DNA of 64,000 bases, from the NCBI RefSeq assembly GCF_004661485.1, contig NZ_PQVH01000012.1, forward strand, positions 157,854-221,853, written 5' to 3'. A model generated the notes under the pieces. The model saw nothing but the letters and a program-made list of their open reading frames with translations, ran no database searches and was not told the DNA's origin. Position numbers and translations under genes: made by a program. Position 1 is the first letter of the stretch; every line of letters begins with the position of its first letter. Below are positions 53,665-58,352 of this stretch, one piece after another. Source of the DNA: Methylotenera oryzisoli. GTDB taxonomy: Bacteria; Pseudomonadota; Gammaproteobacteria; Burkholderiales; Methylophilaceae.

Positions 53665-54750
53665 ATGAAATGTGGAATTGTGGGCCTACCTAATGTAGGA
53701 AAATCAACCTTATTCAATGCAATTACCAAAGCAGGGATTGCGGCTGAAAATTACCCATTCTGTACCATTGAGCCAAATGTGGGCATTGTTGAGGTGCCAG
53801 ACACCCGCTTGCAACCGTTGATTGATATTGTAAAACCACAACGCATACAACCAGCTATCGTAGAGTTTGTTGATATTGCGGGCTTGGTTGCTGGCGCATC
53901 AAAAGGCGAAGGCTTGGGTAATAAGTTCTTGGCTAACATTCGTGAAACGGATGCGATCTCTCACGTAGTGCGCTGCTTTGATGACGGCAATGTTGTGCAC
54001 GTGGCTGGCAAGGTTGACCCGCTTTCTGATATTGAAGTGATCAACACCGAGTTGGCACTTGCCGATATGGAAACTGTTGAGAAAACACTACAGCGCGAAA
54101 GCAAAAAAGCTAAATCTGGCGATAAAGAAGCGATTGCACTTGCTGCGATTTGTGAAAGAATCCAAAAACATCTGGATACTGGCGCACCTGTGCGTACATT
54201 AGGTTTAGACGCTGATGAACTCAACATTATCAAACCGTTATGCCTAATCACGGTAAAGCCTGTGATGTACATCGCCAACGTTGATGAGAGCGGCTTTGAA
54301 AACAACCCATATTTAGACAAAGTAGTCGCGCTAGGTAAAACGGAAGGTGCACCCGTGGTATGCATTTGCGCCAAGATTGAAGGCGAGATCTCCGAGTTGG
54401 ATGACGAAGACAAAGCGGTATTTTTGGCAGAGTTAGGCCAAGACGAACCAGGCTTAAACCGCGTGATTCGCGCGGCCTATGATTTACTCGGCTTGCAAAC
54501 CTACTTTACTGCTGGCGTACAAGAAGTACGTGCATGGACTGTTAAAAAAGGCGCAACAGCCCCACAAGCAGCAGGGGTGATTCATACCGACTTTGAGCGT
54601 GGCTTTATTCGTGCAGAGGTAATTGCCTATGACGAATACGTTAAAAACAAAGGCGAACAAGGCTCAAAAGAAGCAGGCAAAATGCGCTTAGAAGGTAAAG
54701 AATACATCGTGCAAGATGGCGATGTGATGCATTTTAGATTTAACGTTTAA
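53665..54750 (+). CDS. ychF: Redox-regulated P-loop NTPase YchF
   Basis: 361 aa. G1 [12 protein letters not shown] (6-17), G3 DIAGLV, a G4 position reading NVDE instead of NKxD, as is usual for this ATP-preferring Obg-like family, and a C-terminal TGS domain (about 276-360). Linked to ribosome and stress physiology. The conserved pth-ychF pair. Confidence 0.97.
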
Positions 54751-54946: not shown

Positions 54947-54963
54947 TGCACTGCCTTTGTGCA
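54947..54963 (+). promoter_or_regulatory. NtrC-type binding site
   Basis: TGCAC-N7-GTGCA, 17 bp, the layout of the NtrC (GlnG) enhancer site. Its centre is about 119 bases upstream of the predicted sigma-54 start, within the usual enhancer distance. Only one clear copy was found. Confidence 0.6.
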
Positions 54964-55047
54964 CCCACGTATCACCTCTCCATCTCAGATAAACACTAAA
55001 AATTAAATTATCATTTAATATCAAATGGTTAAGATTAACTAAAGCAA

Positions 55048-55063
55048 TGGCACGCCTATTGCT
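55048..55063 (+). promoter_or_regulatory. Sigma-54 promoter, consensus
   Basis: TGGCACG-CCTA-TTGCT fits TGGCACG-N4-TTGCW at every position, with GG and GC 10 bases apart. The predicted start is near 55074. Confidence 0.8.
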
Positions 55064-55073
55064 TCTAGTAAAA

Positions 55074-55260
55074 CAATCGCACCATGTGCAAATAACAATA
55101 AAAATTTACAAACCCAATGAGTGGGCATGTAAATAGCGATAAACATCAACACTGATGCCAATGGCGGCATTAAGTGGCTCAAAGCTTGAGCATCATGAAT
55201 TTAAGACAAAGGCGTCTTTCAGACTGAGTTTTTTACTCGGACAGAAAGACGCCTTTTTTA
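55074..55260 (+). ncRNA. Candidate sigma-54-dependent small RNA or attenuated leader
   Basis: Runs from the predicted sigma-54 start to a strong terminator, about 187 nt. Hairpins: ATTTACA/TGTAAAT with an inner CCCA/TGGG (55104-55134); ATGCC/GGCAT (55155-55170); GCTCAA/TTGAGC (55177-55191); and the terminator (55208-55256). The 5' part is A-rich and unpaired (AATAACAATAAAA). No convincing ORF. No Rfam family is recognised; it is not 6S, tmRNA or a GEMM c-di-GMP riboswitch by motif. It could be an independent sRNA or a leader controlling the operon at 55395. Confidence 0.5.
55208..55260 (+). terminator. Strong intrinsic terminator of the candidate RNA
   Basis: AAAGGCGTCTTTC (55208-55220) pairs perfectly with GAAAGACGCCTTT (55244-55256); an inner stem CTGAGT/ACTCGG (one G-T pair) and a T-run to 55259 complete it. 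Confidence 0.9.
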
Positions 55261-55394
55261 TTAGCGTTGTCATGTTCTTAAATTTAGCTAAGACGCAATT
55301 TGAGGTAGTTATGGCTAGAGATGGAATGACGAAACATCTAGTACAAGGTAACTGTATTACCTAACATATTTTAACCATTAGATAAGGAGCAGGC

Positions 55395-57527
55395 ATGTCA
55401 AGCAACAGTACGTCTAATCACAAGCAGCAGCTAGGTACGTTGAATAAATACCGCGGCATTATATTAGCCGTTACACTCTTTTTGGTATTTAACTTGGCAG
55501 TGCTCGGCCTTAACTTCTACACATCATCCACTCTTGATGGTGACGCTGTTTCCATTAACCTATCAGGGCGGCAACGTATGCTCTCACAGCGTACCGCCAA
55601 GGTGTTGCTAGCAATTCAGGTTGATGCTGCACAGGGAAAATTTGATGCAAAAAATACGGAAGAGCTAAAAAAAGTAAGTTCTCTGTTTGATACCACCCTT
55701 AACAGCTTTAAAACCGGCGGCATGGTGCTGGGTGGCAATGAAAAGCCAGTGTTTCTACCCAAGGTAAATGATGCGGCCTCCATCAAAGCTGTAGATGAAG
55801 CACTGCTCATCTGGCAACCATATAAAAAGCTACTGGAATCCATCATCCAAAGCCGAGTGATAGACGAAGTCAGGCTGGATCTCGCCACAGATTATGCGCG
55901 TGAGAATAATCTGAAGTTATTAAAGCTGATGAACAACCTGACCACGCAACTGGAACAAAACACCAAAACCAAGGCCAGTCACTTACAGCTGATTCAAACC
56001 ATTGCATTGGTATTATCACTGCTACTTTTTGCCAATATTGTATTCAATGCGCTACGCAAACTACGTGCTGCCGATGGTGAAATTGAGAAAGCACAACGCG
56101 AAACGACCGAGATTCTTAATACCGTGAAAGAGGGGCTGTTTCTATTAGACCCCGAGCTTGCGGTAGGTAGCCAGATTTCACGCTCCATTGATCAAATATT
56201 GCAACATGAAGTAAGCGCCAACATGCCGTTTATGCCCATTTTGCAGCAACTGGTTTCAGATGAAATTTACACATCCTCCAAAGACTACATCCAACTACTA
56301 TTTGGCAACAAGGTGAAAGAGAGCTTAATGCTGAGCCTTAACCCACTCTCGCAAGTAAAGGTGCTAACCAAGGACGATTCAGCACCACGTTACCTGAGTT
56401 TTCAGTTCAATCGCGTAGTGGAAAACAAACAAGTACTGCACCTATTGGTCACCGTACAAGATGTTACCGAGCAAGTCACCCAGGCCGAAGAGCTAGCTAA
56501 GCTTAAAGGTCAATCTAACATTAACCTAGAGCTACTCAAAGCACTGCTGCAGGCCGATGCGTTCCAGCTACGTCAGTTCTTAAATCACACACATAGCAAC
56601 TTAGCTGTCATTAACGACATATTAGCCAATGCAGATAAACGCGCCGCCACGCACACTGACATGGTTAATCAATGCTTCCGTATCATCCATGCCATTAAAG
56701 GTGAATCTGCCGCTATAGGCTTGCAGGCTATTCAAGCGCTAGCACATCAGTTTGAAGAACATCTGGTATTTCTGCGTAAAAAGAACGAATGGGATGCTCA
56801 AGAAATTTTAAGCTTACCGGTAATGCTAAGCGCCATACTTGAGCAAATTACGCAAATTGAAACGATTACAGACTTTATGCAAGCGCATCATCAAGCTAAT
56901 CATAGCCCAGAATCCCCACCATCTATCTCCACCAGTGTAGCTAACAACCTAAAACGCCTCGCAGAACAAGTAAATCAAAGCCAAAATAAGAACGTACAGC
57001 TAAATTTAGAACTCACGCTGCTGGATCAGATGGACACAAAAACAGTGCACCAACTGCAACAGATTGGCATCCAACTCATCCGTAACGGCATCTGCCACGG
57101 CATTGAATCTGCTGACGCAAGGCTGGCAAAAGGTAAACCATCGCATGGCGAAATATCCATCACCACACGTATGAACCAAGAAGGCATTATCGACTTTATC
57201 GTACGTGACGATGGGCAAGGCATCGTCCCCAACCGCATCCGCGCAGCCATGCTCACATCAGGGCGCTACTCTAGTGAAATAGTGCATCAGTTATCAGACA
57301 AAGAAATTGTCGCCAAACTGTTTGAGCCCGGCTTCTCAACTTCCAACGGCACAGACCAAGATGCAGGGCGTGGCGTAGGCATGGACTTAGTGCAATCTCT
57401 TATAAATGAAATTGGTGGTGAGCTAAAAATTGACACCAAAGCCGATGTCTTTACGCAATTCTCCTTCCGCATCTCCAAACACGCAAAACCATCTATTAAC
57501 CTAAATGCGACAGAGGACGTAATATGA
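55395..57527 (+). CDS. Membrane PilJ-type sensor fused to Hpt and CheA-like ATPase
   Basis: 710 aa. Membrane helices about 21-43 and 200-220 flank a periplasmic PilJ/NarX-like domain with SGRQRMLSQR (57-66). A PAS-like linker (about 240-360) follows, then an Hpt domain with His432 in IHAIKGESAA. A CheA-like HATPase has N box LIRNGICHGIE (561-571), G1 DDGQG (605-609) and G2 GRGVGMDL (658-665). It has no CheW-like domain, no receiver and no methylation helices, so it is neither a receptor nor a normal CheA. It is the first gene of the operon with a CheY and a CheX. ATAAGGAGC precedes the ATG. Confidence 0.85.
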   Translation: MSSNSTSNHKQQLGTLNKYRGIILAVTLFLVFNLAVLGLNFYTSSTLDGDAVSINLSGRQRMLSQRTAKVLLAIQVDAAQGKFDAKNTEELKKVSSLFDTTLNSFKTGGMVLGGNEKPVFLPKVNDAASIKAVDEALLIWQPYKKLLESIIQSRVIDEVRLDLATDYARENNLKLLKLMNNLTTQLEQNTKTKASHLQLIQTIALVLSLLLFANIVFNALRKLRAADGEIEKAQRETTEILNTVKEGLFLLDPELAVGSQISRSIDQILQHEVSANMPFMPILQQLVSDEIYTSSKDYIQLLFGNKVKESLMLSLNPLSQVKVLTKDDSAPRYLSFQFNRVVENKQVLHLLVTVQDVTEQVTQAEELAKLKGQSNINLELLKALLQADAFQLRQFLNHTHSNLAVINDILANADKRAATHTDMVNQCFRIIHAIKGESAAIGLQAIQALAHQFEEHLVFLRKKNEWDAQEILSLPVMLSAILEQITQIETITDFMQAHHQANHSPESPPSISTSVANNLKRLAEQVNQSQNKNVQLNLELTLLDQMDTKTVHQLQQIGIQLIRNGICHGIESADARLAKGKPSHGEISITTRMNQEGIIDFIVRDDGQGIVPNRIRAAMLTSGRYSSEIVHQLSDKEIVAKLFEPGFSTSNGTDQDAGRGVGMDLVQSLINEIGGELKIDTKADVFTQFSFRISKHAKPSINLNATEDVI

Positions 57528-57898
57528 AATTAATGATTGTCGATGACTCCAATATTATCAGGAGCCGGATTTCCAGAATTATCGCAAACGCAAAGCTCCC
57601 CCCTATCGAGATAGTAGGCACCGCATCCAATGGTACCGATGCGTTTGCATTATGCGTGGCACAGCGTCCAGATATCGTAACGATGGATCTCACCATGCCT
57701 GAGATGGATGGGGTTGAATGTACCGCCCTGCTAGTTGAGTTCGACCCTAACATCAAAATTCTCATCATCTCTGCACTCAGCGACAAAGCCACTGCGATTG
57801 AAGCGTTAAAAAATGGCGCCAATGGCTTCTTATATAAACCTTTTACGGATGAAGAACTCGTCAACGCGCTACTGGAGCTAATAAAAGAAAATGAGTGA
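57524..57898 (+). CDS. CheY-like single-domain response regulator
   Basis: 124 aa, receiver domain only. Phosphoacceptor Asp55 in IVTMDLTMPEMDG, acidic pair in IVDDSN, Lys in LYKPF (about 107). It overlaps the kinase gene by four bases and the next gene by eight, so the three are translated as a unit. With no output domain it must act by protein contact, and is the likely target of the Hpt-kinase. Confidence 0.92.
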   Translation: MKLMIVDDSNIIRSRISRIIANAKLPPIEIVGTASNGTDAFALCVAQRPDIVTMDLTMPEMDGVECTALLVEFDPNIKILIISALSDKATAIEALKNGANGFLYKPFTDEELVNALLELIKENE

Positions 57899-58352
57899 CT
57901 TAAGTGAAAAAGACATCGAAGTCTTTATTGAAGCTATCGGCAACTATTTCAAACAAGCAACCAAAGAGGCTGCAGCGATTAAAGTAGCTTACCTTGCCCA
58001 AAACGCATTCCCCATGAACGACTACACTGGCAAAATCATGGTCAGTGACGGCTATGAAGGCGCGCTCTACTTCTCTGCCCCTAGCGCCATGCTGCGGCAC
58101 CTGCTTACGGTGATGAAAGAAACCAACCAATCAGAAGAAAATCTGCTCGATGCCGTAGGGGAAATCGCCAATACTATCTCCGGTAATGCACGTAAGTATT
58201 TTGGCGAAAATATGGTGATCTCCATCCCTGAAAAAATAGCCAACCTATCTGAAAATCTGGCGCAACAAGCACGCTCATACGCCTACGTGATTATCATCAA
58301 ATGGAAACACTACAGCGCATCACTCATCGTAGATATTTCAAGAAACCGTTAA
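57891..58352 (+). CDS. CheX-like CheY-phosphatase
   Basis: 153 aa. The CheX/CheC/FliY fold with the catalytic motif ExxN (E91-I-A-N94 in DAVGEIANTISGNARK), which removes phosphate from CheY. Last gene of the operon. It supplies the signal-off step of the module. Confidence 0.85.
   Translation: MSDLSEKDIEVFIEAIGNYFKQATKEAAAIKVAYLAQNAFPMNDYTGKIMVSDGYEGALYFSAPSAMLRHLLTVMKETNQSEENLLDAVGEIANTISGNARKYFGENMVISIPEKIANLSENLAQQARSYAYVIIIKWKHYSASLIVDISRNR

Follow-up and report, generated by a model that had tools for sequence, protein, structure and literature searches.

What is the role of the gene-free stretch that precedes a sensor kinase operon in Methylotenera oryzisoli? The window analyzed here, i.e. 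the whole stretch of 64,000 nucleotides of contig NZ_PQVH01000012.1 (positions 157,854 to 221,853), contains in this stretch, on the forward (+) strand, an NtrC-type box, a sigma-54 promoter and a folded RNA, which an earlier note had read as one unit encoding either a stand-alone sRNA or an attenuator for the signalling operon downstream. The stretch is indeed free of genes, with ychF ending at 54750 and the next gene starting at 55395. We consider it probable that the unit is a nas-type control region that now stands before a PilJ kinase operon and opens this operon only when nitrogen is short and NasT is active.

The box (TGCACTGCCTTTGTGCA, positions 54947-54963) is an exact TGCAC-N7-GTGCA, the only one in the window, when compared with the NtrC-box consensus as given in the earlier note; NtrC would be expected to bind it. 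The promoter (TGGCACGCCTATTGCT, i.e. TGGCACG-CCTA-TTGCT, positions 55048-55063) is likewise an exact match to the −24/−12 consensus and the sole exact TGGCACG-N4-TTGCW in the window. When one mismatch was allowed, the box had 3 matches in the window vs. 4.7 expected by chance and the promoter motif 2 vs. 1.4 expected, i.e. both motifs are then about as common as chance predicts, and the box taken alone is not significant. The two elements are credible because they are conserved in the related genomes G051, G012 and G011, not because they are rare. From start to start, box and promoter are 101 nt apart in the window, 102 nt in G051, where the pair precedes the same gene as in the window, and 105 nt in G012, where it precedes nasT; in G011, the promoter is present and the box is weaker by one base. 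The window promoter aligns with the nasT promoters of G012 and G011 (the row for the G051 nasT promoter was left out of this alignment). A consensus −24/−12 element with an upstream NtrC-type box, kept before nasT in relatives, is what was found for an NtrC/sigma-54-dependent promoter, and the genome encodes both NtrC (TIGR01818, 711.5 bits, cut-off 558.6) and a single RpoN (one Sigma54_DBD match, 226.6 bits). Both exact motifs noted previously are thus confirmed, and control of the NtrC/sigma-54 type is supported as a type by these motifs and their conservation in the three relatives. Transcription would start at about 55073, a position deduced solely from the distance to the −24/−12 element.

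From this start, the terminated form of the predicted leader RNA would measure ~187 nt (positions 55073-55259), as delineated by folding and by a covariance model. The RNA 55073-55261 folds with −61.8 kcal/mol (z = −7.2), and none of 200 shuffled sequences folded as well; the folded RNA ending in a 13-bp terminator stem, as claimed in the earlier note, is accordingly borne out. The covariance model matches the window at 55101-55259 with 174.7 bits, the window being one of the four sequences from which the model was built. The first hairpin, H1 (55105-55133), has a seven-base loop, AAUGAGU, with A at position 1 and G at position 4 (A1/G4), and shows changes on both sides at three pairs among the four leaders. 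H2 (55150-55176) combines an A1/G4 hexaloop, AAUGGC (55160-55165), with an outer stem and a 7-bp run, and its stem carries a compensatory change between the window (C-G) and G051 (U-A). An extra hairpin, GCUCAA-AGC-UUGAGC (55177-55191), lies between H2 and H3; its six pairs are kept in all four subgroup leaders and are not seen in the nas leader of the window genome itself. H1 and this hairpin are features of the subgroup. H3 (AAGAC-AAAGGC-GUCUU, 55203-55218), the predicted antiterminator, is followed by and overlaps the intrinsic terminator (55208-55259), in whose lower stem 55208-55220 pairs with 55244-55256 and which ends in a T run reaching 55259; this lower stem is invariant among the four leaders. 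Altogether, 98.7% of the pair cells are kept in the subgroup leaders (these structure counts refer to an alignment of four sequences; elsewhere, the nas leader of the window genome is misaligned at H2).

The loop and 3' arm of H3 are the 5' arm of the terminator, so that only one of the two structures can form. In folds of the growing chain, H2 and H3 appear before the 3' arm of the terminator exists. The finished RNA favours the terminator (−61.8 kcal/mol vs. −47.1 kcal/mol with H3 forced), and read-through would therefore need something that holds H3, for which NasT is the putative candidate. Owing to the near symmetry of the terminator, the leader model is matched in its 3' part by the reverse (−) strand of the window (55208-55263) as well. 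A DNA search of the bacterium's own genome revealed no second close copy of the leader, just the reverse strand of the terminator.

The earlier note had seen no resemblance to any RNA family; this does not hold, given that the homologues of the element are the leaders between nasT and nrtA, with the hairpin signature of ANTAR targets. Among 101 genomes searched at the DNA level, 7 had a match, and those of G012 and G011 lie between the ANTAR gene and nrtA (nasT denotes here the ANTAR-domain gene and nrtA the nitrate transporter gene, and both families were assigned on the window genome's own copies). The four-leader covariance model yielded 53 matches in 44 of 150 relatives, own genome included (E ≤ 0.001), and the conservation outside this genome on which the earlier note had made its case depend is hence present. 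The search with the model over more than 40 genomes used stricter filters and missed the G016 leader, which was found separately at E = 0.0014. In 41 of the 53 cases, a same-strand ANTAR domain directly precedes the match, at a distance of −4 to 261 nt. The remaining 12 comprise four opposite-strand matches over leaders, two matches before nrtA-like genes (G106 and G060), the window and its G051 twin, two matches (contig C14 of the window genome, G000, and G050) before a protein with a CheW domain in G000, one before a formate/nitrite transporter (G130) and one before an EAL protein (G021:C183). ANTAR proteins are encoded by each of the 44 genomes in which the leader model matched, vs. 83 of 150 overall (hypergeometric p = 4 × 10−15, taking both sets of 150 as identical). 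The window genome has one ANTAR match (G000:C18:48602-48760, 67.3 bits), and this sole ANTAR protein carries a receiver-type domain.

For structural counts, 38 leaders were used, namely those of the window and G051, 28 from model-match loci and 8 cut from other regions. H3, identified by rule, overlaps the terminator in 37 of these. Its fourth pair, the 5' base of which lies outside the terminator, covaries (A-U in 26 leaders, G-C in 9, G-U in 2 and unpaired in 1). At least two C-[A..G..]-G hairpins are present in 35 of the 38 leaders, compared to a mean of 0.03 in shuffled sequences; the three misses include an empty row (G033). The G057 leader has neither H3 by rule nor an A1/G4 hairpin, and the additional G130 leader has one hairpin alone. 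The counted leaders were chosen by a model built on the subgroup, and the H3 core is therefore partly selected. ANTAR substrates are described as two small hairpins with hexaloops that carry A1 and G4, the second of which overlaps a terminator (PMC3369931). The window has two such hexaloops (AAUGGC in H2 and AAAGGC in H3), the second hairpin, 55203-55218, overlaps the intrinsic terminator at 55208-55259, and an ANTAR protein is encoded in the genome. Judged by its sequence, the leader is of the NalA/nasF type and is a predicted binding target of the ANTAR antiterminator NasT.

The operon begins 135 nt behind the terminator, and no sigma-70-type site was found between the terminator and the start of its first gene. 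This gene encodes a sensor kinase of 710 aa (55395-57527; PilJ, Hpt and HATPase domains by Pfam) and is followed by genes for a CheY-like, receiver-only response regulator (57524-57898, PF00072) and a CheX-type phosphatase (57891-58352, PF13690). The N-box of the sensor, INLSGRQRMLSQ, departs from the pattern [IVL]-[ND]-x-A-G-x-Q-R-M-L-[ST]-Q at one position, with Ser for Ala; among 10 sensors, 3 match the pattern exactly and all 10 keep the Arg. By fold comparison, the PilJ domain resembles McpN and NarQ, matches of four-helix bundles being weak evidence; in a second comparison, the PilJ receptor tied with McpN, and the sensor domain of the PilJ receptor is reported not to have bound nitrate (PMC6381276). 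The PilJ-domain kinase may sense nitrate.

Could the terminated RNA of ~187 nt be a product in its own right, acting in trans, in the simplest case by titrating NasT, while the kinase is served by a promoter of its own? EutX/Rli55 titrate EutV, and several observations are in line with such a role: the terminated RNA is stable in prediction, carries hairpins of the NasT type and would arise whenever NasT is inactive, and 135 nt separate the leader from the kinase start. However, the same leader is joined to nas genes in relatives, the overlap between H3 and the terminator is characteristic of a read-through switch, the kinase that follows the leader is the same one in the window genome and in G051, and the sigma-70-type promoter that the kinase would require was not found before it. 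We regard this possibility as unlikely; among the two alternatives put forward in the earlier note, the attenuator for the downstream signalling operon is retained, and the stand-alone sRNA is the weaker reading.

The order of genes in relatives bears on how the leader came to its present place. The locus of G011 and G012 consists, in this order, of ychF, promoter, nasT, leader, nrtABC, porin, PilJ kinase, CheY-like regulator and CheX (the CheY-like regulator of G012 is a partial match only), and the same order from nasT to CheX is found at other sites in G127, G021, G016, G018 and G022. The window genome and G051 have just the promoter, the leader and the kinase operon after ychF, and lack nasT and nrtABC-porin at the locus; this arrangement, with the leader directly before the kinase operon, occurs in just these two of 150 genomes. 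The promoter, leader and pre-start region of the window can be aligned with three distinct parts of the longer locus, i.e. the nasT promoter, the leader between nasT and nrtA and the region before the kinase. A further nas cluster of the window genome, equipped with a sigma-54-type promoter and a leader of its own, is located ~164 kb away from the window leader; in this genome and in G051, such a cluster lies beside a gene that we take to be mutS-like, as it does in G050 and G043. In the kinase tree, the window genome, G051, G011 and G012 stand apart from the other five (support 100), and the kinase sequences reject the tested alternative in which G011 and G012 group with G016 (p = 2 × 10−5). 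The NasT-NrtABC sequences reject the grouping of the window genome, G051, G011 and G012 (AU test, p = 0.022). The nine close sensors exclude the matches in G147 (40% identity, no nas genes within the 15 kb examined) and G057 (partial, near a contig end). On the simplest reading of these sequences, nasT and nrtABC-porin would have been lost on either side of a retained leader; insertion on both sides of the leader in the other lineage would be an alternative, which we do not prefer.

In the gap between porin and kinase, the loci L014, L015, L029, L032 and L033 contain a hairpin, CACC-AACG(A/G)C-GGTG, 42-56 nt before the kinase start. Such an A1/G4 hexaloop hairpin before the kinase is present in 5 of 7 relatives with the long locus (the G022 kinase start was shifted by 48 nt to an inner ATG for this comparison), and no terminator was seen beside it in the porin-kinase gap of these five; it is possibly an ANTAR site that acts on translation.

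These absences raise the question of whether the promoter and leader are simply what is left of a vanished nas operon, with no present role, the kinase being expressed by other means. That G011 and G012 have nasT and nrtABC-porin at the corresponding locus and that these genes are missing here, along with the existence of a second nas cluster, would fit such a view. It is rendered improbable by the state of the control region: the window and G051, ~72% identical over the region, have each preserved promoter, box, hairpins and terminator, H2 shows the compensatory change between the two, and the A1/G4 loops are kept. A riboswitch or a different small-molecule-binding RNA, as might be imagined from the several hairpins before the terminator and from the subgroup-specific H1 and 55177-55191 hairpins, is hardly tenable given the co-occurrence with ANTAR, the A1/G4 hexaloops and the lack of any Rfam riboswitch at threshold in the window.

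NasT-dependent attenuation is thus the explanation that we favour. Under nitrogen limitation, phosphorylated NtrC would start transcription; without active NasT, the RNA would end at about 55259. NasT bound to H2 and H3 would keep H3 formed and block the terminator, whereupon the polymerase could reach the genes for the kinase, the CheY-like regulator and CheX, and the short terminated RNA would be mainly a by-product. This explanation is favoured by the leader homologues between the ANTAR gene and the nitrate transporter gene in G011 and G012, by the 41 of 53 matches behind an ANTAR domain and the 44 of 44 matched genomes that encode one, and by the structure itself, i.e. the A1/G4 hairpins, the H3-terminator overlap, the covariation at the fourth pair and the early formation of H2 and H3. 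It is further favoured by the alignment of the window parts with the three corresponding elements of the longer locus, by the lack of a sigma-70-type site before the kinase along with the presence of NtrC, RpoN and one ANTAR gene, and by the A1/G4 hexaloop hairpin before the kinase in 5 of 7 long-locus relatives. Against it count the occurrence of the arrangement in just two of 150 genomes, a 135-nt gap that could hold a promoter of another type, scores of Rfam narK and P11 below threshold, and motifs that are not rare once a mismatch is allowed. The leader might also be a leftover still in decay, although 98.7% of the pair cells are kept. Further points against are that the choice of the counted leaders by the subgroup model favours the H3 core and that a NasS-like second copy of NrtA was not found in the genome.

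Further leaders were observed elsewhere. In the window genome, a NasT-type leader with A1/G4 hairpins, H3 and a terminator (L101:3775-3953, i.e. G000:C14:47774-47952) precedes the gene for a protein of 861 aa, in which a CheW domain and, with a score below its cut-off, a Cache domain were recognized; in G050, such a leader (L102:3866-4031) precedes the gene for an 854-aa look-alike. The nas and CheW-protein leaders of the window genome were found by the covariance model. The CheW-domain protein is a likely further signalling target of NasT. At G021:C183, a leader-like element with a sigma-54-type motif (L103:2828-2957) stands before EAL and GGDEF genes; it has a single A1/G4 hairpin before the terminator arm, which makes its reading as a NasT target weak. 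Inhibition of NasT by c-di-GMP is reported for P. putida (PMC12830290), so that a regulatory loop at G021:C183 is conceivable. A leader match in G130:C21 (L106:5504-5657) precedes a formate/nitrite transporter gene, which is followed by what is presumably a cyanase gene.

The third NasT-type leader, before the CheW-domain protein, and the A1/G4 pre-kinase hairpin of relatives point to a broader, more tentative and rather doubtful notion, namely that the two-key control region was retained for the needs of the sensing module after the antiterminator and transport genes of a nas operon had been lost, such that, in Methylotenera, NasT governs the perception of nitrate and not only its assimilation. 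No second NrtA-like gene (NasS, which we take to be an NrtA-like protein) was found in the window genome, so that NasT may have another partner there; nasT and nrtA lie side by side at G000:C18:47031-48760. As no NasS was detected, the nitrate input of NasT could in part come from the PilJ kinase. If the attenuator reading is true, antitermination determines whether and when this bacterium produces a nitrate sensor, and the differences between the window/G051 locus and that of G011 and G012 illustrate how a control region can persist after the structural genes of its operon are gone. The genome would offer a compact model, with one NasT protein and three leaders (nas, kinase operon and CheW protein).

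Leaders of the NasT/NasR type are described as serving nitrate/nitrite assimilation and, in Bradyrhizobium, denitrification genes (PMC6759348, PMC12830290). The Bradyrhizobium NasT regulon is characterized as mainly nitrogen metabolism, and the terms "chemotaxis" and "histidine kinase" are absent from the main text of that article (PMC6759348). A literature search that covered few subscription journals found no report of a PilJ/CheX operon controlled by NasT. What is already known is the NalA-like mode of working and the sequence features of ANTAR substrates, which the window leader shares; what is new is a sensory operon as the target, with nas genes absent from it.

An Rfam scan placed no family at its threshold over the leader. 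P11 (RF00625), which we take to be NalA, scored 13.5 bits in the window against a gathering threshold of 70, and matched 8 of 20 leader loci of relatives at 24.5-35 bits; membership in this family was rejected. The leader resembles narK RNA (RF03032) in a hairpin and a GACAAAGACGUC stretch that aligns to H3; membership was likewise rejected (25.4 bits, gathering threshold 43.2). The sensor resembles McpN and NarQ in the PilJ domain, in a fold match and in an N-box that differs at one position and keeps the Arg reported to bind nitrate in the McpN-type N-box (PMC6381276); in contrast to these, it is a CheA-like kinase with Hpt and HATPase domains, neither a chemoreceptor nor a NarQ-type kinase, and has Ser for Ala. 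Like the EutV-ANTAR leaders of Enterococcus, the window leader has two A1/G4 hexaloop hairpins, the second overlapping the terminator, whereas the former serve ethanolamine genes, with the kinase EutW phosphorylating the ANTAR protein (PMC3369931), and the window leader adds H1 and the extra hairpin. The nasF leader of Klebsiella, a nitrate operon leader that works with NasR, is described as an ANTAR hexaloop hairpin before an intrinsic terminator (PMC3369931), the same succession as in the window; however, NasR has a NIT domain whereas the ANTAR protein here is of the receiver type, and the downstream genes here are not assimilation genes. The parallel with NalA, the nirBD leader of Pseudomonas, was already drawn in the earlier note and is reinforced by the description of NalA as a leader RNA that is transcribed under NtrC/sigma-54 control and acted upon by the ANTAR protein NasT (PMC12830290). 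The window leader is likewise of the NtrC/sigma-54 type, ends in a terminator and has the same type of ANTAR protein encoded in its genome, with the action of NasT predicted; it differs from NalA in its target, a sensor kinase operon instead of nitrite reductase.
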